NCBI RefSeq assembly: GCF_017916365.1
Contig: NZ_JAFMSU010000003.1
Location: forward strand, 806,001-870,000
Source: Rufibacter roseolus
Lineage (GTDB): Bacteria; Bacteroidota; Bacteroidia; Cytophagales; Hymenobacteraceae
Direction of reading: 5' to 3'
DNA length: 64,000 nt
This document shows positions 36,753 through 49,774 of this stretch, one piece after another (the stretch's first letter is position 1; each line of letters starts with the position of its first letter). A program made the position numbers and the translations under genes. The notes under the pieces are model-generated. The model was given only the letters and a program-made list of their open reading frames with translations, searched no databases and was not told the DNA's origin.

Positions 36753-38465
36753 TTACAAAATCCCCTTCGCCCGCTTGCGCTCTTCAAAATAGGCCGCCAC
36801 TTCGTCCCGGCTTTTGGCGTTGAATGTCATCTCCGGGGTTAGTCCGCCTTTGCGGCCGACGAGTACGCCGTAGCGCATGTCATCGTAGCCGCGCATGCTG
36901 TGGGCGTCTGGGTTGATGCTCAGGAGCACGTTCTGGCTCAGGGCGTATTCTACCCAGCGCCAATCCAGGTCCAGGCGCCACGGGTTGGCGTTGATTTCTA
37001 TGATGACTTGGTTTTCGGCGCAGGCGTCAATCACGGTTTTATGGTCAATGGGGTAGCCTTCGCGGCGCAGGAGCAAGCGACCGGTGGGGTGCCCCAGCAT
37101 GGTGGTATAGGGGTTTTGGATGGCGTTCACCAATCGGTCAGTGGCCTTCACGATGTCCATTTTTAGGTTGCTGTGGATGGAGGCGACAATGAAGTCAAAA
37201 GAGGCGAGCACGTCATTGTCATAGTCCAGCGAGCCATCTGCCAGGATATCAGACTCAATGCCTTTGAAGATGCGGAACGGCCCCAGCTCCTGGTTAAGGC
37301 GGTCAATCTCTTTCTGCTGCTCCTTCACCCTGAATTCCTGCAGACCATTGGCATAGTAGGCAGATTTGGAGTGATCGCAGATGCCCAGGTACTCGTAGCC
37401 CAGTTGTTTGCAGTGCACGGCCATCTGCTCCAGCGTGTGCGCGCCGTCTGAGTAGGTGCTGTGGTTGTGCAGGATGCCTTTCAGGTCGCTGTCCTGGAGG
37501 AGCGTGGGCAGTTGGTTTTCGCGGGCCAACTCCAGCATGCGCAGGCTTTCGCGCAGTTCCGGGGCGATGTACGGCAGGTTCACGCGCCGGAAGATCTCCT
37601 CCTCAGAAGCAGCCGGCTCGCCGTAGGCCTCCGCGATGAGCGTATCGCCGGCTTCGTTCACGGGTTGCGATAACCACGCCGGACTGGCTGAGTACAGCAG
37701 CGTCTGGTTTGCGAAGCGGCGTTCGGGCACCAGCCGCACCTCCAGCTTCACGCCGGATGTGTCTACCAGTCCACGCCACACAAACGGTCCGGAAACCGAT
37801 TCCTGCGGCGATATCCCCGGCAGCTCGGTCAGGAAGTAGGGCCAGTTCTCCTCACTGTTCAGGCTCAGAAGGAACTGCAGGGTCTCCACGGTCTCCAGGT
37901 TTCGGCGAATCTCCCCTACCACTTCGGCGGCTACCGTTTCAGGCCTGTTTTTGAGGAAAGAGAGCAATTCCAGCGCCAGGGTCTCGGCCTCGGCCCAGAG
38001 CAGTTTGCCTTTGTTGGACTCGGTGTATTGCAGCCCCTGCAGAATGGTTTCCTGGGTTTTCGCCCCGAAGCCTTTCAGCTTAGATACTTCGTTTTTCTCA
38101 CAGGCCTCACGCAAGCCTTCAATGGTGTCCACGCCCAGGTCTTTCCAGATGGTTTTGATTTTCTTCGGCCCTATGCCTTTGATGTTGAGCATCTGCACCA
38201 CGCCTTCGGGGGTGGTTTCCAGGAGCCGTTTCAGGTCGGTGTGGGAGCCGGTCTGGATGGCTTCCATGATCTTGCCGGCCATGCCTTTGCCAATACCATC
38301 CAGCTTTTCCAACTGGGCCTGGCTCATCTGGTGAATAGGTGATTCTATCCGTTCCATCACCATCACGGCGCTGGTATAGGATCTTATTTTAAACGGGTTC
38401 TCGTCATGCAGCTCCATCAGAGAAGCCGTCAGCCGGAACATACGGATAAGTTCTTTGTTCTCCAC
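36753..38465 (-). CDS. polX: PolX-type protein: PHP phosphoesterase with a degenerate polymerase domain
   Basis: 570 residues, full family length. Helix-hairpin-helix motifs are at LDGIGKGMAGKI (55-66), IKGIGPKKIKTI (95-106) and LKGFGAKTQETI (130-141). The palm region reads VGEIRRNLETVETLQFLL (183-200). Where family X polymerases carry the D-x-D metal site, this protein has Thr195 and Gln197, and the third carboxylate is Glu242. The C-terminal PHP domain (about 330-560) keeps its metal ligands: HNHSTYSDG, ICDHS, GIESDI, ASIHS, LGHPTGR, INPDAHS. It is therefore probably a DNA 3'-5' exonuclease or AP-endonuclease-like enzyme without DNA synthesis. It stands alone. Confidence 0.93.
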   Translation of the reverse strand: MENKELIRMFRLTASLMELHDENPFKIRSYTSAVMVMERIESPIHQMSQAQLEKLDGIGKGMAGKIMEAIQTGSHTDLKRLLETTPEGVVQMLNIKGIGPKKIKTIWKDLGVDTIEGLREACEKNEVSKLKGFGAKTQETILQGLQYTESNKGKLLWAEAETLALELLSFLKNRPETVAAEVVGEIRRNLETVETLQFLLSLNSEENWPYFLTELPGISPQESVSGPFVWRGLVDTSGVKLEVRLVPERRFANQTLLYSASPAWLSQPVNEAGDTLIAEAYGEPAASEEEIFRRVNLPYIAPELRESLRMLELARENQLPTLLQDSDLKGILHNHSTYSDGAHTLEQMAVHCKQLGYEYLGICDHSKSAYYANGLQEFRVKEQQKEIDRLNQELGPFRIFKGIESDILADGSLDYDNDVLASFDFIVASIHSNLKMDIVKATDRLVNAIQNPYTTMLGHPTGRLLLRREGYPIDHKTVIDACAENQVIIEINANPWRLDLDWRWVEYALSQNVLLSINPDAHSMRGYDDMRYGVLVGRKGGLTPEMTFNAKSRDEVAAYFEERKRAKGIL

Positions 38466-39197: not shown

Positions 39198-39593
39198 ATG
39201 AAACACTTCTTTTTGCTGAGCCTGCTGGCCCTGGTGCTCATGGGGGCCCGGTGCGGCGCCAAAGCCGATTTGCCGGCCTCGGTGTACGGGCTTACCTGGC
39301 TCAACTCCTATGAAGAAGACTCTGCCGATGTGCGCACCTACCGGCCCAATACCTTTGACTTTCCGCCCTCGCGGGGGCGCACCGGGTTTATGATCCAGGC
39401 AGACGGCACGTTCATCCGCTACGGCATCGCCCCTACCGATGGTCTGGAAGAGCAGCCCGGCAAGTGGGAGGCCAAGGCCAAAGACCGCCTGCTGGTAACC
39501 TTTGACAATCCCAAACACGCCCCGGAAGAACTGGAGATCATCTCTGTCACCTCAGAACTGATCAAACTCCGGCGAAAGAAAAACCAAGAATAG
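39198..39593 (+). CDS. Small exported protein, probable lipoprotein, unknown function
   Basis: 131 residues from the ATG at 39198 (MKHFFLLSLLALVLMGARC). The frame is open 55 codons further upstream, but that stretch is repeat-derived and lacks a signal. Cys19 follows a weak lipobox (MGAR-C), so lipidation is uncertain. The mature part is predicted beta-rich, with a repeated W (WLNSYEEDSADVRTYRP, GKWEAKAKDRLLVTF) that is faintly lipocalin-like. It is probably cotranscribed with nothing: a terminator follows before the EVE gene. Confidence 0.75.
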   Translation: MKHFFLLSLLALVLMGARCGAKADLPASVYGLTWLNSYEEDSADVRTYRPNTFDFPPSRGRTGFMIQADGTFIRYGIAPTDGLEEQPGKWEAKAKDRLLVTFDNPKHAPEELEIISVTSELIKLRRKKNQE

Positions 39594-39662: not shown

Positions 39663-40067
39663 ATGAATTACTGGCTCGTTAAATCTGAACCTGAAAAATA
39701 CGCCTGGTCTGACCTGCAACGCGATAAACAAACCACCTGGGACGGAGTTAGAAACTTCCAGGCCCGTAACAACCTCCAGAAAATGCAGCAGAACGATCTG
39801 GTCATGTACTACCACAGCGTCTCTGAGAAATCTATTGTGGGGGTGGCCAAAGTAAGCCAGGAAGCCTATCAGGACCCCACCACCCCAGAGACCCAATGGG
39901 TGGCGGTAACCCTGGTGCCGGAGAGCGCGTTTGCAAAACCAGTAACCCTGGACCAGATCAAAAAAGAAGAACGGCTCCAGAACATCGCGCTGCTGCGGCA
40001 GTCAAGGTTATCTGTGATGCCATTAACGCCCGAAGAGTTTGACCTTTTGTTGGCCATGGGCCAGTAA
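39663..40067 (+). CDS. EVE-domain protein
   Basis: 134 residues covering one EVE domain, a PUA-like fold. Family features are the start MNYWLVKSEPEKYAWSDL, WDGVRNFQARNNLQKM with the aromatic pocket residues, DLVMYYHS and the VGVAKV strand. The domain is thought to read modified bases in nucleic acid; the free-standing bacterial form resembles thymocyte nuclear protein 1. It lies just upstream of the four-paralog array on the same strand, but nothing ties it functionally to the array. Confidence 0.93.
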   Translation: MNYWLVKSEPEKYAWSDLQRDKQTTWDGVRNFQARNNLQKMQQNDLVMYYHSVSEKSIVGVAKVSQEAYQDPTTPETQWVAVTLVPESAFAKPVTLDQIKKEERLQNIALLRQSRLSVMPLTPEEFDLLLAMGQ

Positions 40068-40136: not shown

Positions 40137-41684
40137 ATGTTCCCACTCATCAGAAGCACTTCCTGGCGGTACCTGTTTCTCCTGCTCTGCTGGGGCTGGG
40201 TTTTCTGTGCGCAGGCGCAGAAGAAAGACAAAGACAAGCAGAAGCCTGAGCCGCCGGCCCAAACCTATCGGGCAGAGATAGAAAGTGACTCTTATGACGA
40301 GGAGCATTCTGTGCACACGCTCCCAGACACCAGCCTGTTGGTGGTATCGTTTAAGCGGAACAGTTGGTTCAGCAAGGATGACTTTGTGCTCACCAAGTAC
40401 AACCGCGAGCTGAAACAGGTCTGGCAAACCAAGTATGAGCATAAAACCAACCATGTGCTGCTGCAGGTGGCCGCCGACCGCAAATTGGTGTTCCTGCTGT
40501 TCTCTACCCCCAACAACAAAAAGCTGATGCTGCACAAGGTGAACGCCGCCACGGGCGTCTCCACCTTTAGCGAACATACGTTGCCGGCCTCCTATATCAC
40601 CATCAGGGAGATGGCTACCCTTGACGGACAGGTGTTCCTCAACGGCCTGGACCGCGACAACCTGAACATGCTGCACCTGGACCCCAACGTGGACGAAATA
40701 AAGCTGCTACCCGCCGTTTTTGGGATGGAAGATGACTTGGGCGAGTTCAGGGTAGACACGCTTACCCACGCGGTAGAGTTTGTTGTGGCCGAGTCAAACG
40801 GCAGGCGCTCACGGGTGCAGGCCAAACGCATGAACACCAAGGGCGAGGTTATAGGCACGTATTTTCTCCAGCCCGAGCTGGACGAGCGCAATGACAACAC
40901 CCTGCAGGCTGGTCGCCTCACCCCCGGCGACACCCTCACCAAGGTGCTGCTGGGCACCTATGGTTTCCGCACCTCGGTGTTCGCCAAGGGTTTGTACAGC
41001 AGTGACTTGGCCGGCAACGTCAACTACTACGATTTCACCAAGCTGGATCATTTCTTTGAGTACATGGGGCCCCGCGCCCAACGGCGCATGAAAGCGAAAT
41101 TCGCCCGGCAGGAGGCCAAAGGAAAACCGCCCGTGCTGCGCTACCGCATGTACCTGCACCCCATCATGCCTCACCCGCAAGGTTACGCCTTGGTGGGCGA
41201 GATCTATTACCCGCAGTACCGCAACAACAGCTTAAACCAATACACCAACATCACGGGCCGGTACCCGGACATCCGGCAGGCCAGGAGCAACTTTGACGGT
41301 TATCGGTTTACCCATGCCATTGTCTGTGTTTTTGACCGCGAGGGCAAGCTGCTCTGGGACAACTCCTACAAACTGCAGAACGAGACCTACCCCCAACTGG
41401 CCCCCACCGTGGAAGCCGGCGTCACCCCCGAGGGCAACATCGCCCTGACTTACCCGGAGGAAGAATACATCTGGTACAAGACCGTTAAACCCAACACCTA
41501 CGTTTCTGACGATGAGAAAGTAGAGGTGCGGCTGCAGGAGGAAAGCGAGAAAAGAATCACCAGCAGCAACGAAGGCATTGTGCATTGGTACGGCGGCAAT
41601 TTCGTGGCCTTCGGGTTCCAGCGCATCAAGCCTGATCACGGCTCGGCCCGCACCGTCTTTTACCTGCAGAACATGGTCTTCTAA
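40137..41684 (+). CDS. Array paralog 1: secreted protein of unknown function
   Basis: 515 residues. Signal peptide about 1-27 (ending FCAQAQ), then a short charged linker KKDKDKQKPEPPAQTYR. The body has repeated short strand pairs, for example DDFVLTKYNRELKQVWQTKY and DGQVFLNGLDRDNLNMLHL, suggesting a beta-propeller (inference). Blocks shared with the next three genes are GEFRVDTL, TPGDTL, the basic RRMKAKFAR segment, LHPIMPHPQGYALVGE, FTHAI-CVFD, LLWDNSYKL, HWYGGNFVAFGFQRIKP and RTVFYLQNMVF at the very C-terminus. There is no T9SS tail, lipobox or catalytic triad. I do not recognise the family. It is first in the array and 69 bases after the EVE gene. Confidence 0.85.
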   Translation: MFPLIRSTSWRYLFLLLCWGWVFCAQAQKKDKDKQKPEPPAQTYRAEIESDSYDEEHSVHTLPDTSLLVVSFKRNSWFSKDDFVLTKYNRELKQVWQTKYEHKTNHVLLQVAADRKLVFLLFSTPNNKKLMLHKVNAATGVSTFSEHTLPASYITIREMATLDGQVFLNGLDRDNLNMLHLDPNVDEIKLLPAVFGMEDDLGEFRVDTLTHAVEFVVAESNGRRSRVQAKRMNTKGEVIGTYFLQPELDERNDNTLQAGRLTPGDTLTKVLLGTYGFRTSVFAKGLYSSDLAGNVNYYDFTKLDHFFEYMGPRAQRRMKAKFARQEAKGKPPVLRYRMYLHPIMPHPQGYALVGEIYYPQYRNNSLNQYTNITGRYPDIRQARSNFDGYRFTHAIVCVFDREGKLLWDNSYKLQNETYPQLAPTVEAGVTPEGNIALTYPEEEYIWYKTVKPNTYVSDDEKVEVRLQEESEKRITSSNEGIVHWYGGNFVAFGFQRIKPDHGSARTVFYLQNMVF

Positions 41685-41718
41685 AGGCCTTTCTTAAAAC
41701 GCACCCGCTTGTGCTTAC

Positions 41719-41750
41719 AGGCTACTTTTCTAAAAACAGGGTTAAAACAG
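41719..41750 (+). repeat. Dispersed AT-rich palindrome, copy 16
   Basis: AGGCTACTTTTCTAAAAAC then AGGGTT, tail AAAACAG, 34 bases after array paralog 1. Confidence 0.45.
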
Positions 41751-41863
41751 CCTCAATACTGTTCGCCCTGGTCAGGACTTCTATTTCCAGGAAAGCCTTT
41801 TGGACTAAAACCATAAGGGAGTTAATTCACTCATTTGAGTGAAGATTTTAAACAGGGTAATGT

Positions 41864-41911
41864 CTTTATATAACTTTATCCATATATTAAGATCTGATTA
41901 GCTTCCTTTTT
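41864..41911 (+). promoter_or_regulatory. Conserved upstream block of array paralog 2
   Basis: CTTTATATAACTTTATCC through CATATATTAAG and GATTAGCTT. The same block, at the same 48-base distance from the ATG, precedes paralog 4 (45281). It probably contains the promoter; TAACTTTA is the closest match to a -7 element. Confidence 0.55.
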
Positions 41912-43465
41912 ATGCGTGTCTTCCCCCGGTGTACTTCCTTGATGCCTCTGCCGTTTTTGCTGCTCTGCTGTATTGGCTCTTTTGCGGCACATGCCCGCCA
42001 GAAAAATAAGGATAAAGAAAAGTCAGCTGCGCCTAACCAGACTTACCGGGTAGAACTCAAAAGTAATTCGTTTGACGATGACCACCGGGTGCATGTTCTG
42101 CCAGATAGTGCACTGTTTCTGGTGTCTTTGCCCCGGCACGCAGGGTTTGGCCATCAGGACTTTGTCCTTACCAAGTATGACCGCCAGCTTAAACCCATTT
42201 GGGAATCAAAGTACGCGCATGACCCCAACCACCACTTGATAGATGTGGCTTCTGACAGCCGGAAGATGTATCTGCTGTTTTCCACTAAGTCTTACCAAAA
42301 GCTGGTGCTATACCAGGTAGACGCGGCCACCGGCAAAGCCACGCACAGCGAACACAGCCTGCCCTCCATTTTCATCTACATCCGGGGAATAGCCGCTGTG
42401 GACGGTCAGGTCTTCTTGAATGGGCTGGAGAAAGAAAACCTGAGAATGCTGCACCTAAACCCCCAGGAAGAAGAAATAAAGCTGTTGCCCTCGGTTCTGG
42501 GGCTGAAGGATGATCTGGCTGAGTTCAGGGTAGACACGCTCTCCCGCACCATGGAGTTTGTGGTGGCCGAGTCTGATGGCTTACACCCGCGGGTACAAGC
42601 CAGGCGCATGAATCCGCAGGGCGGCATCATTGGCACGTACTTTTTCCAACCTAAACCGGAAGAGCGCACAGACAACACCTTGCAAACAGGTCTCCTCACC
42701 CCCGGTGATACCCTAGGCAAGTTACTCATCGGGTCCTATGGGTACCGATCCAGCCGCTTCCTGCGAGGTTTGTTTACGGGTGATCTGAAAGGTAATCTCA
42801 AGTATTATGATCTAAGTAAACTAAGCCACTTTCTGGAGTACCTCTCTCCCCGGGCTCAACGACGCATGAAAGCCAGGTTTGCCCAGGAAGAAGCAAAAGG
42901 CAAACCATGGACCTACCCTTACCAACTACTGCTACACCCAATTTTGCCCCACCCGCTGGGTTATGCTGTAATTGCAGAGGTCTATCATAAGCAGTTTGGC
43001 CACGACAAGTACTACACCTCCAGGGCTACTAACCCCGTGTATGCTCCGGTGGCCGATGCCCGCCCCATGATGTTTGACGGCTATCGGTTTACCCATGCTA
43101 TTGCCTGTGTTTTTGACCGCGAGGGGAATCTGCTCTGGGACAATTCTTATAAACTGAAGAACATCACCTATCCAGAATTAACCCCCACGGTGGAGGCCAG
43201 CATTAGTCCTGAGGGGAACATTACCATGGCCTACCCAGATGAGAAATATGTTTGGTACAAAACCCTAAAACAAGACCAGTCTATCAGTGATGAAGAGAAG
43301 GTAGCGGTAAGGTTACAGGAAGAAACCGAGAAGAGGGTCGCCAGCAGCCACGAAGGCCTTGCTCACTGGTATGGCAACAACTTTATCGCCTTCGGGTTTC
43401 AGCGCATTAAGCCCAAAAAAGGCTCCTCCAGAACAGTTTTCTATCTCCAGAACATGGCTTTCTAA
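41912..43465 (+). CDS. Array paralog 2: secreted protein of unknown function
   Basis: 517 residues. Signal peptide about 1-27 (ending FAAHAR), linker QKNKDKEKSAAPNQTYR. It has the same body and the same conserved blocks as paralog 1, with small changes: LHPILPHPLGYAVIAE replaces the HPQGYALVGE form, and the C-terminus is FYLQNMAF. The segment between the YH-KQF strand and FDGYRFTHAIACVFD (about residues 368-395) is unrelated to the other copies. It has its own conserved upstream block, so it is probably transcribed separately from paralog 1. Confidence 0.85.
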   Translation: MRVFPRCTSLMPLPFLLLCCIGSFAAHARQKNKDKEKSAAPNQTYRVELKSNSFDDDHRVHVLPDSALFLVSLPRHAGFGHQDFVLTKYDRQLKPIWESKYAHDPNHHLIDVASDSRKMYLLFSTKSYQKLVLYQVDAATGKATHSEHSLPSIFIYIRGIAAVDGQVFLNGLEKENLRMLHLNPQEEEIKLLPSVLGLKDDLAEFRVDTLSRTMEFVVAESDGLHPRVQARRMNPQGGIIGTYFFQPKPEERTDNTLQTGLLTPGDTLGKLLIGSYGYRSSRFLRGLFTGDLKGNLKYYDLSKLSHFLEYLSPRAQRRMKARFAQEEAKGKPWTYPYQLLLHPILPHPLGYAVIAEVYHKQFGHDKYYTSRATNPVYAPVADARPMMFDGYRFTHAIACVFDREGNLLWDNSYKLKNITYPELTPTVEASISPEGNITMAYPDEKYVWYKTLKQDQSISDEEKVAVRLQEETEKRVASSHEGLAHWYGNNFIAFGFQRIKPKKGSSRTVFYLQNMAF

Positions 43466-43553
43466 TTATTAAATCTTCATCCTTTTTAGGCAAATACTGC
43501 TTTTAAAAATCTATACCTATTCAATATCTATTACCCTGATCACTACTCTTTCT

Positions 43554-45104
43554 ATGCATTTCTCCCGCCCCAAAAACCATCTTAAGTTTCTGATCGTGCT
43601 TCTTTTCTGCTGGGGCACGGCTTTTAGCGTGCAGGCCCAGAAAAATAAGAACCGGGAGAAATCGGCTGCGCCGGCCCAGACTTACCGGTCAGAACTGGCT
43701 AGCAATTCCTTTGACAACGAACACCACGTGCAGGCACTTCCAGACAGTGCCCTTCTGTTGGTGTCTATGAAACGCAATGCATGGTTTGGCAAGAATGATT
43801 TTGTGCTTACCAAGTATGACCGGGCGCTTAAGCCGGTTTGGGAAACCAGGAACGAGCATTTGCCCAACACCGGCTTACTTTTTGTCGCTGCGGAGCGGGG
43901 CAAGATCTATCTTCTGTTTTCTACCCTTACGAGCCAGAAACTCCTCCTCTACCAGGTAAATACGAACACAGGCCTGGGAACGGTCAGTGAACACACCCTG
44001 CCTTCCACCGATATCCTCTTCAAGGAAATGGCCGCGCTGAATGGCCAGGTGTTCCTGAGCGGCGTGAATAAATTCACGTTGAACATGCTGCATTTGAACC
44101 CGCAACAGGAGGAAATAAAACTGCTGCCGGCGGTTTTCGGTACGGAGAAAGACCTGGGCGAGTTCAGGGTAGACACGCTCTCCAAGGCCGTGGAATTTGT
44201 GACGGCGGCAACAAACGGGCAGTATGCGCAGGTACAGGTAAAGCGCATGAACTCCAAAGGCGATGTCACCGGTAGCTACTTCATCCAACCTGACTTAAAC
44301 AGCCGCGCCAACAACACCCTGCAACCAGCCCGCCTCACGCCCGGTGACACGCTGAACAAACTACTGGTGGGCACCTATGGGTACCGCACCGACAAATATG
44401 CCAATGGTTTGTTCATCAGCACCCTGGCCGGGCAGATCGCTTATTATGACCTGTACAAACTCAGCCACTTCTTTGAATACTTATCGCCGGGGGGAGAGCG
44501 CCGCATGAAGGCCAAATTAGCCCGCAAGGAGGAAAGAGAGCGCGCTTTGGTGATGGAGCACCAGGTATTGCTGCACCCCATCATGCCGCACCCGCAGGGC
44601 TTTGCCCTGGTGGGAGAAGTGTATTATCCGCACTATACCACCCTTACTAAAGGTGAGTTCAGAAAAGAAAATGGCCGATTACCCAATTACAATGATAAAA
44701 GAATCACTTTTGACGGCTATCAATTCACCCATGCCATTGCCTGTGTATTTGACCATGAGGGCAACCTGCTGTGGGATAACACCTATAAACTCAGAAATCT
44801 CACGCACGCCACTTTGGATCCTACCCTAAAGGCTGGAGTTTCCCCGGCGGGCAACATCACGCTGGTGTACCAGGAAAAGGATTTTGTCTGGCATAAAACC
44901 CTGAAACCAAATATCTCCCTCACAAACAAAGAAAAGGTATTGGTGCGGCTCCAGGAAAAGACGGAGAAAATGGTCACCAGCACCAATGAGCAAATCATAC
45001 ACTGGTACGGCAGCAACTTCATCGCCTACGGTTTCCAAAGAATCAGACCCAAGCAGGGTGAGGCGCGCACGGTGTTTTACCTGCAGAACATGGCTTTTGA
45101 GTAA
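43554..45104 (+). CDS. Array paralog 3: secreted protein of unknown function
   Basis: 516 residues. Signal peptide about 1-28 (ending SVQAQ), linker KNKNREKSAAPAQTYR. It is the most diverged copy in the basic segment (RRMKAKLARKEERERAL) and lacks the KGKP that follows in the others. LHPIMPHPQGFALVGE, FTHAIACVFDHEG and the C-terminal RTVFYLQNMAFE are kept. It lies only 88 bases after paralog 2 and lacks the upstream block seen before paralogs 2 and 4, so it is probably cotranscribed with paralog 2. Confidence 0.85.
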   Translation: MHFSRPKNHLKFLIVLLFCWGTAFSVQAQKNKNREKSAAPAQTYRSELASNSFDNEHHVQALPDSALLLVSMKRNAWFGKNDFVLTKYDRALKPVWETRNEHLPNTGLLFVAAERGKIYLLFSTLTSQKLLLYQVNTNTGLGTVSEHTLPSTDILFKEMAALNGQVFLSGVNKFTLNMLHLNPQQEEIKLLPAVFGTEKDLGEFRVDTLSKAVEFVTAATNGQYAQVQVKRMNSKGDVTGSYFIQPDLNSRANNTLQPARLTPGDTLNKLLVGTYGYRTDKYANGLFISTLAGQIAYYDLYKLSHFFEYLSPGGERRMKAKLARKEERERALVMEHQVLLHPIMPHPQGFALVGEVYYPHYTTLTKGEFRKENGRLPNYNDKRITFDGYQFTHAIACVFDHEGNLLWDNTYKLRNLTHATLDPTLKAGVSPAGNITLVYQEKDFVWHKTLKPNISLTNKEKVLVRLQEKTEKMVTSTNEQIIHWYGSNFIAYGFQRIRPKQGEARTVFYLQNMAFE

Positions 45105-45134
45105 TCTCCTTTATTGAGCAGGTCTCTGTTTCCA

Positions 45135-45165
45135 CCCCATTTTCCTGAAAACACGGTCAAAACAG
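45135..45165 (+). repeat. Dispersed AT-rich palindrome, copy 17
   Basis: CCCCATTTTCCTGAAAACAC then GGTC, tail AAAACAG, 30 bases after array paralog 3. Confidence 0.45.
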
Positions 45166-45280
45166 CGGCAAAACTGCCAGACTTTGGCAGATCCTTATTT
45201 TCCGGCTGTAGATTTTGAACCGGGAAATTCTTATGAAGATGACAGAAACAAATCTGAAAAGTTCTTAATCTGACTTGTGG

Positions 45281-45328
45281 CTTTATATAATTTTATAACT
45301 ATATTAAGTTCAGATTAGCTTTTCTTGT
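45281..45328 (+). promoter_or_regulatory. Conserved upstream block of array paralog 4
   Basis: CTTTATATAATTTTATAAC through TATATTAAG and GATTAGCTT, matching 41864-41911 with the same spacing to the ATG. Confidence 0.55.
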
Positions 45329-46885
45329 ATGCGTCTCTTCTCATGTGGTACATATCAGGTAATGCTTGCGCTACTCCTGCTTTGCTGGAGCATCACTTGT
45401 ACTGCGCAAGTCCGCCAGAAGAACAGGGGCAAGGAGAAATCAGCACCTCCGGCTCAGACGCACCGGGTAGAGGTGGAAAGCAGTTCTTTTGATGACAAAC
45501 ACCTGGTGCATGCCCTACCGGACAGTGGCTTGCTGGTAATCTCCACCAAACGCCACGCGGTAGAGGGGAAGCATGAATTTGTGCTCACCAAATACAACAA
45601 AGCGCTTAAACCTATCTGGCAAACAAGCCATGGGCATCATTCAAACCACGCCTTCCTGCTTTTGGCCGCCGAGCCGAAAACCCTGTACCTGCTGTTTTAC
45701 AGGCTCCATGACAGGAAAGTCCTGCTTTACCAGGTAAATAATACTTTGGGTACGGTTACGTTCAGTGAGCACACGTTACCCCCGTCTGGTCTTACCCTCA
45801 AAGAAATGAAAGCGCTGGACGGACAGGTGTTTCTGAAGGCGCTGGAAAAAGACCAGCTGAGTCTACTGCACCTAAACCCTAGTCAGGGAGAAATAAGAGC
45901 CCTGCCCCTTACGCTGGGCCTGGAAGAGGATGTAGGCGAGTTCAGGGTAGACACCTTGACGCACGCGGTTGAAGTTGTGGTGGCCGAGTCAAACGGAACG
46001 CGTTCGCGGCTGCAGATCAAGCGCATGAATTCCAATGGCGAGGTCGTGGGCACGTACTTTGTTCAGCCCCAGATGGAGTTCCGCTCAGAGAACACGCTGC
46101 AAAGTGCCCGGCTCGCTCCCGGAGACACCCTCAACAAGGTACTGGTGGGCACTTTCGGGCATCGCAGGTATACCTTCTCCAAGGGTTTATTTTCCAGCAG
46201 CTTGGTTGGCAACCTCAGGTATTTTGATTTCAGCAAGCTCAAGCACTTCTTTGAATACCTCTCGCCCAGGAGAGCACGCCGGATAAAAGCCAAATTCGCC
46301 CGCCGCGAAGCCAAGGGAAAGCCTGTTCTGCTGCGCCCCCGCTTACTTTTACACCCTGTTATGCCCCACCCGCAAGGATACGCCATGGTAGGGGAAATTT
46401 ATTACCCACAGTACAAAAGCGGCCCCCTTAATCTGTATAGCAGCATCTATGGTTCCGGGCAGGACAAGCAACCCTCTGAGCAGGAATTGATTGAAGGTTA
46501 CCAATTCACCCATGCCATTGCCTGTGTTTTTGACCATGAGGGCAACCTGCTGTGGGACAATTCCTTCCGGCTCAAAAATGAAACTTATCCAGAGTTGATG
46601 TCAAAGGTAACACCAGGTGTCTCGCCGGCGGGCAATATCACGCTGGTGTACCCCGAGGAAGAATACGTCAGGTACAAGACTTTACGGCCAAACGTTTCTA
46701 TCTCCGATGAGGAGAAGGTGGAGGTAAGATTACAGGCCGATTCTGAGAAACTGTACGCCAGCAACGAGGAAGGAATCATCCATTGGTACGGCAGCAATTT
46801 TATCGCCTACGGGTTTCAGCGCATCAAACCGGCCCATGGCCAAGACCGCACGGTTTTCTATCTCCAAAGCATGACGTTTGATTAA
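45329..46885 (+). CDS. Array paralog 4: secreted protein of unknown function
   Basis: 518 residues. Signal peptide about 1-25 (ending CTAQ), linker RQKNRGKEKSAPPAQTHR. The blocks GEFRVDTL, PGDTL, LHPVMPHPQGYAMVGEIYYPQY and HWYGSNFIAYGFQRIKP are retained. The variable segment before GYQFTHAIACVFD is SGQDK/SEQE-rich and differs from the other three. The C-terminus is FYLQSMTFD. Its TAA stop shares the bases TTAA (46882-46885) with the stop of the convergent nhaA gene, so no terminator fits between them. Confidence 0.85.
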   Translation: MRLFSCGTYQVMLALLLLCWSITCTAQVRQKNRGKEKSAPPAQTHRVEVESSSFDDKHLVHALPDSGLLVISTKRHAVEGKHEFVLTKYNKALKPIWQTSHGHHSNHAFLLLAAEPKTLYLLFYRLHDRKVLLYQVNNTLGTVTFSEHTLPPSGLTLKEMKALDGQVFLKALEKDQLSLLHLNPSQGEIRALPLTLGLEEDVGEFRVDTLTHAVEVVVAESNGTRSRLQIKRMNSNGEVVGTYFVQPQMEFRSENTLQSARLAPGDTLNKVLVGTFGHRRYTFSKGLFSSSLVGNLRYFDFSKLKHFFEYLSPRRARRIKAKFARREAKGKPVLLRPRLLLHPVMPHPQGYAMVGEIYYPQYKSGPLNLYSSIYGSGQDKQPSEQELIEGYQFTHAIACVFDHEGNLLWDNSFRLKNETYPELMSKVTPGVSPAGNITLVYPEEEYVRYKTLRPNVSISDEEKVEVRLQADSEKLYASNEEGIIHWYGSNFIAYGFQRIKPAHGQDRTVFYLQSMTFD

Positions 46886-48291: not shown

Positions 48292-48864
48292 ATGCACAAA
48301 CGCCTCATTGTTCCGCACGCACTGTTTCAGATCATGATCCGGCGCCTGGCGCACCAGCTCATAGAGACGCACCGCGATTTTTCCAATTCCGTTATCCTGG
48401 GCCTGCAGCCGCGCGGCATCTTTGTGGCAGACCGGCTCCAGCAGACCCTGCAGGAGATTCTGGGTATAACGGTGCAGACCGGCTACCTGGACATCACTTT
48501 CCACCGCGATGACTTCCGCCGCCGCGCCACGCCGCTGGCTCCAAATGCCACCAAGGTAGATTTCTCCCTGGAAGGCAAACGCGTGATTCTGGTAGATGAT
48601 GTGCTCTATACCGGCCGCTCCGTGCGGGCCGCCCTGGACGCCATGATCTCCTACGGACGCCCCGCCCAGGTAGAGCTGCTGGTACTAATTGATCGCCAGT
48701 ACACCCGCGATTTACCCATTGAAGCCACGTATACCGGCCAGCGCGTAGACTCCCTGCACTCGCAGCGGGTAGAAGTCACCTGGCAAGGCCCAGATTCACC
48801 AGAGGATGTTATCTGGCTCCTCACCCTTACCCCAGACCAAGAAGAACCCCATGCAACAGCTTAG
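48292..48864 (+). CDS. pyrR: PyrR-type uracil phosphoribosyltransferase / pyr regulator
   Basis: 190 residues. The PRPP-binding motif VILVDDVLYTGRSVRAALDA (about 98-117) is intact. ILGLQPRGIFVADRL and the TYTGQRVDSLHSQRVEV segment fit PyrR rather than Upp or HPRT. It can convert uracil to UMP. In Gram-positives it also attenuates pyr operons by binding leader RNA, but no such leader is visible here. Its last 14 bases overlap pyrB, so the two are coupled. The gene may act mainly in salvage. Confidence 0.92.
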   Translation: MHKRLIVPHALFQIMIRRLAHQLIETHRDFSNSVILGLQPRGIFVADRLQQTLQEILGITVQTGYLDITFHRDDFRRRATPLAPNATKVDFSLEGKRVILVDDVLYTGRSVRAALDAMISYGRPAQVELLVLIDRQYTRDLPIEATYTGQRVDSLHSQRVEVTWQGPDSPEDVIWLLTLTPDQEEPHATA

Positions 48865-49774
48865 CGTCCGGCATCTGTTGGGCATCAAAGAGATTACCCC
48901 GCAGGATATTCAGTTGATCTTTGAAACCGCTGACCAGTTTAAGGAGGTTCTGAACCGGCCTATCAAGAAAGTGCCGTCGCTCCGCGATGTCACCATTGCC
49001 AACGTGTTCTTTGAGAACTCCACCCGTACGCGGCTCTCTTTTGAGCTGGCAGAGAAACGCCTCTCGGCGGATGTAATCAACTTCTCGGCCTCGGGCAGTT
49101 CAGTGAAAAAAGGCGAAACCCTGCTGGACACCGTCAACAACATCCTGTCTATGAAGGTAGATATGATTGTGATGCGCCACAGCAGCCCCGGCGCACCGCA
49201 TTTCCTGTCGCGTAAAATCCAGGCCAACATCGTGAACGCCGGCGACGGCACCCATGAGCACCCTACCCAGGCGCTGCTGGACTCCTTCTCCATCAGGCAG
49301 AAACTGGGCGAGGTAGCCGGCAAAAAGGTGGCCATCATCGGTGACATCACCCACTCCCGGGTGGCGCTTTCCAACATCTTCGCGCTGCAGATGCAGGGAG
49401 CCGAAGTAGCCGTATGCGGACCGCCCACCCTGCTGCCCAAACACATTGCTGATTTGGGCGTGAGGGTTTTCTGGAACGTGCGCGAGGCCCTGCAATGGTG
49501 CGATGTGGCCAACGTGCTGCGCATCCAGCTGGAGCGCCAGCAAGGCAAACTGTTTCCGTCCTTGCGCGAATACGCCCTTTACTTCGGGATCAACAAGAAG
49601 ATGTTGGACGAACTGGACAAGGAGATCGTGTTGATGCACCCTGGTCCTATCAACCGCGGCGTGGAACTCACCTCAGACGCCGCCGACTCCCACCACTCTA
49701 TCATCCTGGACCAGGTAGAGAACGGCGTGGCCATCCGGATGGCGGTCTTGTACCTGCTGGCCAGCAAAGGGTAA
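48851..49774 (+). CDS. pyrB: Aspartate carbamoyltransferase catalytic chain
   Basis: 307 residues from the ATG at 48851 (MQQLSVRHLLGI); an upstream ATG at 48806 would lie deep inside pyrR and adds residues not seen in the family. It makes carbamoyl aspartate in pyrimidine synthesis. Carbamoyl phosphate site FFENSTRTRLSFE (about 53-65), aspartate-site loop SSVKKGET, GDGTHEHPTQALLD (about 133-146), and the C-terminal HPGPINRGVEL are all intact. No pyrI regulatory gene follows; the gene ends at a terminator. Confidence 0.97.
   Translation: MQQLSVRHLLGIKEITPQDIQLIFETADQFKEVLNRPIKKVPSLRDVTIANVFFENSTRTRLSFELAEKRLSADVINFSASGSSVKKGETLLDTVNNILSMKVDMIVMRHSSPGAPHFLSRKIQANIVNAGDGTHEHPTQALLDSFSIRQKLGEVAGKKVAIIGDITHSRVALSNIFALQMQGAEVAVCGPPTLLPKHIADLGVRVFWNVREALQWCDVANVLRIQLERQQGKLFPSLREYALYFGINKKMLDELDKEIVLMHPGPINRGVELTSDAADSHHSIILDQVENGVAIRMAVLYLLASKG

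Follow-up and report, generated by a model that had tools for sequence, protein, structure and literature searches.

Four consecutive genes of Rufibacter roseolus, which lie in the 64,000-nucleotide stretch analysed here ('the window'), encode secreted proteins with a predicted beta-propeller fold and differ from one another most strongly in one short segment. The array probably arose by birth-and-death tandem expansion of a core beta-propeller gene with a disordered loop that is under weak constraint and drifts in all lineages. We arrive at this reading from the array itself, its distribution and synteny, the predicted fold, and a comparison of paralogs with orthologs at matched divergence.

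The tandem array and its variable segment

The four open reading frames (c1–c4; Table 1) are intact and free of stops, lie in tandem on the + strand and align co-linearly from the signal peptide to the C-terminus, with c2–c4 being 58–60% identical to c1, which bears out the initial annotation of four tandem genes with common blocks throughout. A whole-genome search revealed no further family copies elsewhere in R. roseolus (total of four), and no Rfam or tRNA matches occurred in the window.

A single segment (alignment columns 363–388) stands out, with a mean pairwise identity of 0.12 among c1–c4. In the six pairs its identity was 0.00–0.23 vs. 0.57–0.63 in the remainder from column 41, and 10,000 column shuffles produced no window of 26 columns as low. 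Identity was higher in the next most variable windows, at 0.32 for the signal peptide and 0.41 for residues of about 95–121. The shuffle result and the alignment therefore confirm the segment and argue against chance. The annotation had also allowed that the segment might prove no more divergent than the rest, which these identities contradict. Its estimate of segment length (26–30 residues) was somewhat high, as the segment measures 25–26 residues in c1–c4.

Table 1. Positions in the window of the propeller gene copies, their variable segments, the upstream elements and the conserved neighbours.
Feature	Position	Strand	Remarks
EVE-domain gene	39663..40067	+	conserved upstream neighbour
Copy 1 (c1)	40137..41684	+	515 aa; sole-copy type of most Rufibacter species
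c1 variable segment RNNSLNQYTNITGRYPDIRQARSNF	41220..41294	+	alignment; disordered hairpin tip in model
AT-rich element before c2 (TTTATATAACTTTAT..ATATTAAG..CTGATTAGCTT)	41863..41911	+	alignment
Copy 2 (c2)	41912..43465	+	517 aa; close ortholog absent from the 16 Rufibacter genomes searched
c2 variable segment GHDKYYTSRATNPVYAPVADARPMMF	42998..43075	+	alignment
Copy 3 (c3)	43554..45104	+	516 aa; orthologs: R. hautae copy 2, G015 copy 2, more distantly G014 copy 2
c3 variable segment TTLTKGEFRKENGRLPNYNDKRITF	44637..44711	+	alignment; disordered in c3's own model
AT-rich element before c4, same as that of c2	45280..45328	+	alignment
Copy 4 (c4)	45329..46885	+	518 aa; orthologs: R. hautae copy 3, G004/R. 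latericius copy 2
c4 variable segment KSGPLNLYSSIYGSGQDKQPSEQELI	46415..46492	+	alignment
Phosphoribosyltransferase-domain gene (pyrR-like)	48292..48864	+	conserved downstream neighbour
Aspartate carbamoyltransferase (pyrB)	48806..49774	+	conserved downstream neighbour

Distribution and genomic neighbourhood

Close relatives all come from Rufibacter, namely R. hautae (96% for copy 1), R. latericius, R. glacialis, R. psychrotolerans and R. immobilis. All 16 Rufibacter genomes searched contained the family, in one to four copies each, so that copy number, which the initial annotation had proposed to check, does vary between species. Beyond the genus, it was present in all 196 good Hymenobacteraceae genomes, nearly always as a single copy, and in 194 of 239 good Cytophagales genomes. 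Outside the Cytophagales, a phylum sample of 392 genomes yielded two matches, of which that in G445 was strong (E 2e-43) and that in G771 marginal and stop-containing.

Searches of Pfam, NCBIfam and PDB sequences with c1–c4 returned chance-level matches only. Nine diverse relatives run against the profile libraries likewise gave only weak matches below the Pfam cut-offs, among them LPD38 against L091 (E 8e-4) and a beta-propeller model against the far-diverged R. hautae copy described below (E 0.005). A literature search found no publications on the propeller family, and the earlier view that no described family has this layout stands after the database searches. Judged from sequence comparison, this is a widespread and unnamed core gene of the Hymenobacteraceae, for which we found no model in Pfam or NCBIfam.

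The position of the gene is also conserved. At most of the Hymenobacteraceae loci examined the order is polX, a small lipoprotein-like gene, an EVE-domain gene, the family gene, a pyrR-like gene and pyrB, and the stretch from the family gene through pyrR to pyrB recurs in two other Cytophagales families. The extra copies of Rufibacter lie within the EVE–pyrR interval wherever flanks were read, with the exception of the far-diverged R. hautae copy. Of the upstream neighbours, the small lipoprotein-like protein of the window (39198–39593, + strand, 131 aa) has no Pfam match and travels with the EVE and propeller genes across the Hymenobacteraceae. The PolX-like protein (36753–38465, - strand) has HHH and PHP domains and a partial polymerase-beta thumb in Pfam searches, with no match to the palm, and its polymerase part may be degenerate. 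At two loci of another Cytophagales family (L090:6499–8046, L092:6412–7965) the propeller gene sits beside a different conserved gene of ~592–595 aa rather than pyrR–pyrB; from the start of its sequence this neighbour is probably argS.

Predicted structure and export

Copies c1 and c3 were modelled separately from a shallow 14-sequence alignment (pLDDT 77.0 and 77.5, respectively; pTM 0.76), and blades were grouped by hand from DSSP strands. Both models have eight four-stranded antiparallel blades, with strand 41–49 closing the ring, and there is an extra helix at 312–327 (306–327 in the comparison with BamB). The variable segment links two long strands of blade 6 (349–361 and 386–399) and has pLDDT < 50 in both models; it is predicted to form the disordered tip of a protruding blade-6 hairpin. 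The top structural matches are also propellers, many of which score alike: the IFT-A subunits reach a Z of 19.0, BamB one of 17.5 (rmsd 4.2 over 317 residues) and the designed Ika8 one of 17.0. The models and matches thus lend support to two suggestions of the initial annotation, a beta-propeller fold and a surface-loop position for the segment.

While an eight-bladed beta-propeller is supported by modelling, function does not follow from the fold. No one functional family stood out in the fold search: generic scaffolds led by Z, and enzymes and receptors such as ulvan lyase, sortilin and prolyl oligopeptidase reached TM-scores of about 0.3–0.4. The Bacteroidota do have other secreted propellers of unknown role, among them the DUF4221 protein BVU_1028 (3s9j), which resembles the Rufibacter proteins in being a Bacteroidota beta-propeller (Foldseek E 3e-6) but differs in its TM-score of 0.32–0.41, 12% identity and the lack of a Pfam DUF4221 match to our proteins.

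The signal peptides end in AQA/AHA-like sites and, judged by eye, there is no lipobox. Searches of Pfam and NCBIfam up to E = 10 matched no T9SS sorting domain, and the modelled fold reaches the last residues; both results agree with the first description of proteins without a T9SS tail or a lipobox. The proteins would be exported to the periplasm, and to judge solely by fold and location, their most likely role appears to be that of a binding scaffold in the periplasm or envelope.

Divergence of the segment in paralogs and orthologs

The initial annotation compared paralogs only, and considered repeated duplication with diversification at one surface loop. As a control, we related pairwise segment identity to pairwise backbone identity among 67 family members, and compared classes of pairs at backbone identity 0.56–0.70. 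Copies within one genome averaged 0.16 in segment identity (n = 11), the first or single (c1-type) copies of different Rufibacter species averaged 0.19 (n = 51), and single-copy orthologs from other genera averaged 0.21 (n = 118). The paralogs did not differ significantly from either ortholog set in one-sided Mann–Whitney tests (p = 0.20 and 0.14), values which are only a guide as pairs share sequences, and which leave room for a small excess of segment divergence in paralogs. At matched backbone divergence, single-copy orthologs in other genera and in other Rufibacter species thus differ in the segment to the same degree as paralogs, and the proposed link between segment variability and the array falls away.

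The traits of the segment are likewise family-wide. It is the highest-entropy stretch of the family-wide alignment, varies in length from 16 to 48 residues, and consists to 70% of N/G/S/P/Q/Y/T/R vs. 44% elsewhere. Its dN/dS was 0.04–0.78 in those ortholog pairs where it was computable, synonymous sites being saturated in several pairs and in paralogs; the upper value comes from c4 of the window and its R. hautae ortholog. One paralog pair exceeded 1, and in both of these comparisons synonymous changes were few or saturated. The matched-divergence control, these family-wide traits and dN/dS < 1 in the evaluable ortholog pairs therefore place the variability in the loop of the whole family, not in the array. 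More generally, a hypervariable loop seen among paralogs alone calls for comparison with orthologs before diversification is concluded.

One subtype behaves differently. The c3-type loop, TTxTKxxFRKENGRLPxYND, is kept in three of its four members, and G014 copy 2 shows greater identity in the segment than in the backbone both to the c3 copy of G015 (0.76 vs. 0.57) and to c3 of the window (0.68 vs. 0.55). The segment is therefore not free to drift in every subtype. In R. hautae, on the other hand, the c3-type loop is altered (segment 0.40 vs. backbone 0.91). Recombination as the source of the c3-type loop in G014 copy 2 is unproven, the synonymous sites of the common stretch being not clearly more alike than those elsewhere. 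With few sequences to hand, the retention of the c3-type loop is the sole hint of subtype- or copy-specific function.

History of the copies

In the family tree, c1, c3 and c4 each group with orthologs from other species and c2 stands alone, with many inner branches weak. R. hautae has a far-diverged fourth copy located beyond nhaA (L032:14900–16408). This copy and one from G010 (L027) are about 29–36% identical to all others and 36% identical to each other, and they cluster at full support on long branches, possibly as an ancient paralog or the product of a transfer.

In both R. hautae and G015, copies 1 and 2 are 94–96% identical over their final ~36 codons vs. a gene mean of 66%, and in R. 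hautae the likeness continues into the intergenic DNA. Such a pattern is typical of tandem arrays that undergo conversion or unequal crossing-over, and 3'-end gene conversion has taken place in these relatives. Among c1–c4 themselves, the only candidate tract was a 90-nt stretch of 90% identity directly after the segment in c1 and c2, which is not conclusive. Alignment of the upstream regions showed that the AT-rich element found before c2 and c4 (Table 1) is absent before c1 and c3, and that in R. hautae and R. latericius it also precedes the downstream copies. This pattern suggests a candidate separate promoter for c2 and c4.

Origin and possible roles of the array

In the explanation that we favour, a core single-copy gene of the Hymenobacteraceae and most other Cytophagales would have expanded in tandem at the level of the genus, through unequal crossing-over and gene conversion. 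The polar, disordered tip of the blade-6 hairpin would be weakly constrained family-wide, its sequence and length drifting in every lineage, so that old paralogs come to be as divergent there as orthologs of equal age. The extra copies may serve dosage or mild subfunctionalization. With one to four copies at one locus and 3'-end conversion tracts, the array resembles ordinary bacterial birth-and-death arrays of tandem paralogs; it is set apart from these by one very unconstrained loop and nothing else.

Alternatively, each copy could have gained its own loop for a different ligand or partner after duplication, such that the array widens the binding repertoire. No other part of c1–c4 diverges as much as the segment, which is in keeping with this idea, as are the recognizable loop of each subtype and the c3-type loop, which in its most distant member is kept above the backbone level. 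We nonetheless consider it unlikely, since at equal divergence the loop differs no more between paralogs than between orthologs (0.16 vs. 0.19 vs. 0.21), which also distinguishes the array from variable-loop diversification systems, and because the loop is predicted to be disordered, the evaluable ortholog pairs show no dN/dS excess, and R. hautae has an altered form of the c3-type loop itself. That the blade-6 hairpin tip acts as a subtype-specific recognition element is, in our estimation, slightly more doubtful still.

Variation of a surface-exposed loop under phage or predator attack, as a means of receptor-site evasion, would affect single- and multi-copy species alike, and would fit a loop that is polar, exposed by prediction and variable in length and sequence in every lineage. 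However, segment dN/dS between species mostly lies far under 1, the loop is retained in some species pairs (segment identity is 0.96 between c1 of the window and c1 of R. hautae), and a cell-surface location would have to be assumed for this explanation, which we find the least probable of those considered. Scarcely more probable is a duplicated BamB-like scaffold of outer-membrane protein assembly. BamB chains from solved BAM complexes (e.g. 9cnw chain B) rank with the top PDB matches and align along almost the full model (residues 34–514), and BamB is likewise exported and built of eight four-stranded blades. Yet unrelated eight-bladed propellers, namely the IFT-A subunits and Ika8, score equally; identity to BamB is about 10%; neither c1–c4 nor the nine diverse relatives match the Pfam profiles for PQQ_2/PQQ-type (BamB) repeats; no lipobox was seen in c1–c4; and bam genes are absent nearby. 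The Rufibacter protein further differs from BamB in its extra helix and in its protruding blade-6 hairpin with a variable tip.

Birth-and-death expansion with a drifting loop thus remains our preferred account, and the interest of the array is modest, coming chiefly from the unannotated core family and less from the loop. Were the hairpin tip a recognition element after all, Rufibacter would run parallel propeller receptors or scaffolds, with the partner of each set by one exchangeable loop. The main value of the finding is the family itself: a secreted, predicted propeller present in every good Hymenobacteraceae genome and in four of every five Cytophagales sampled, at a fixed spot.
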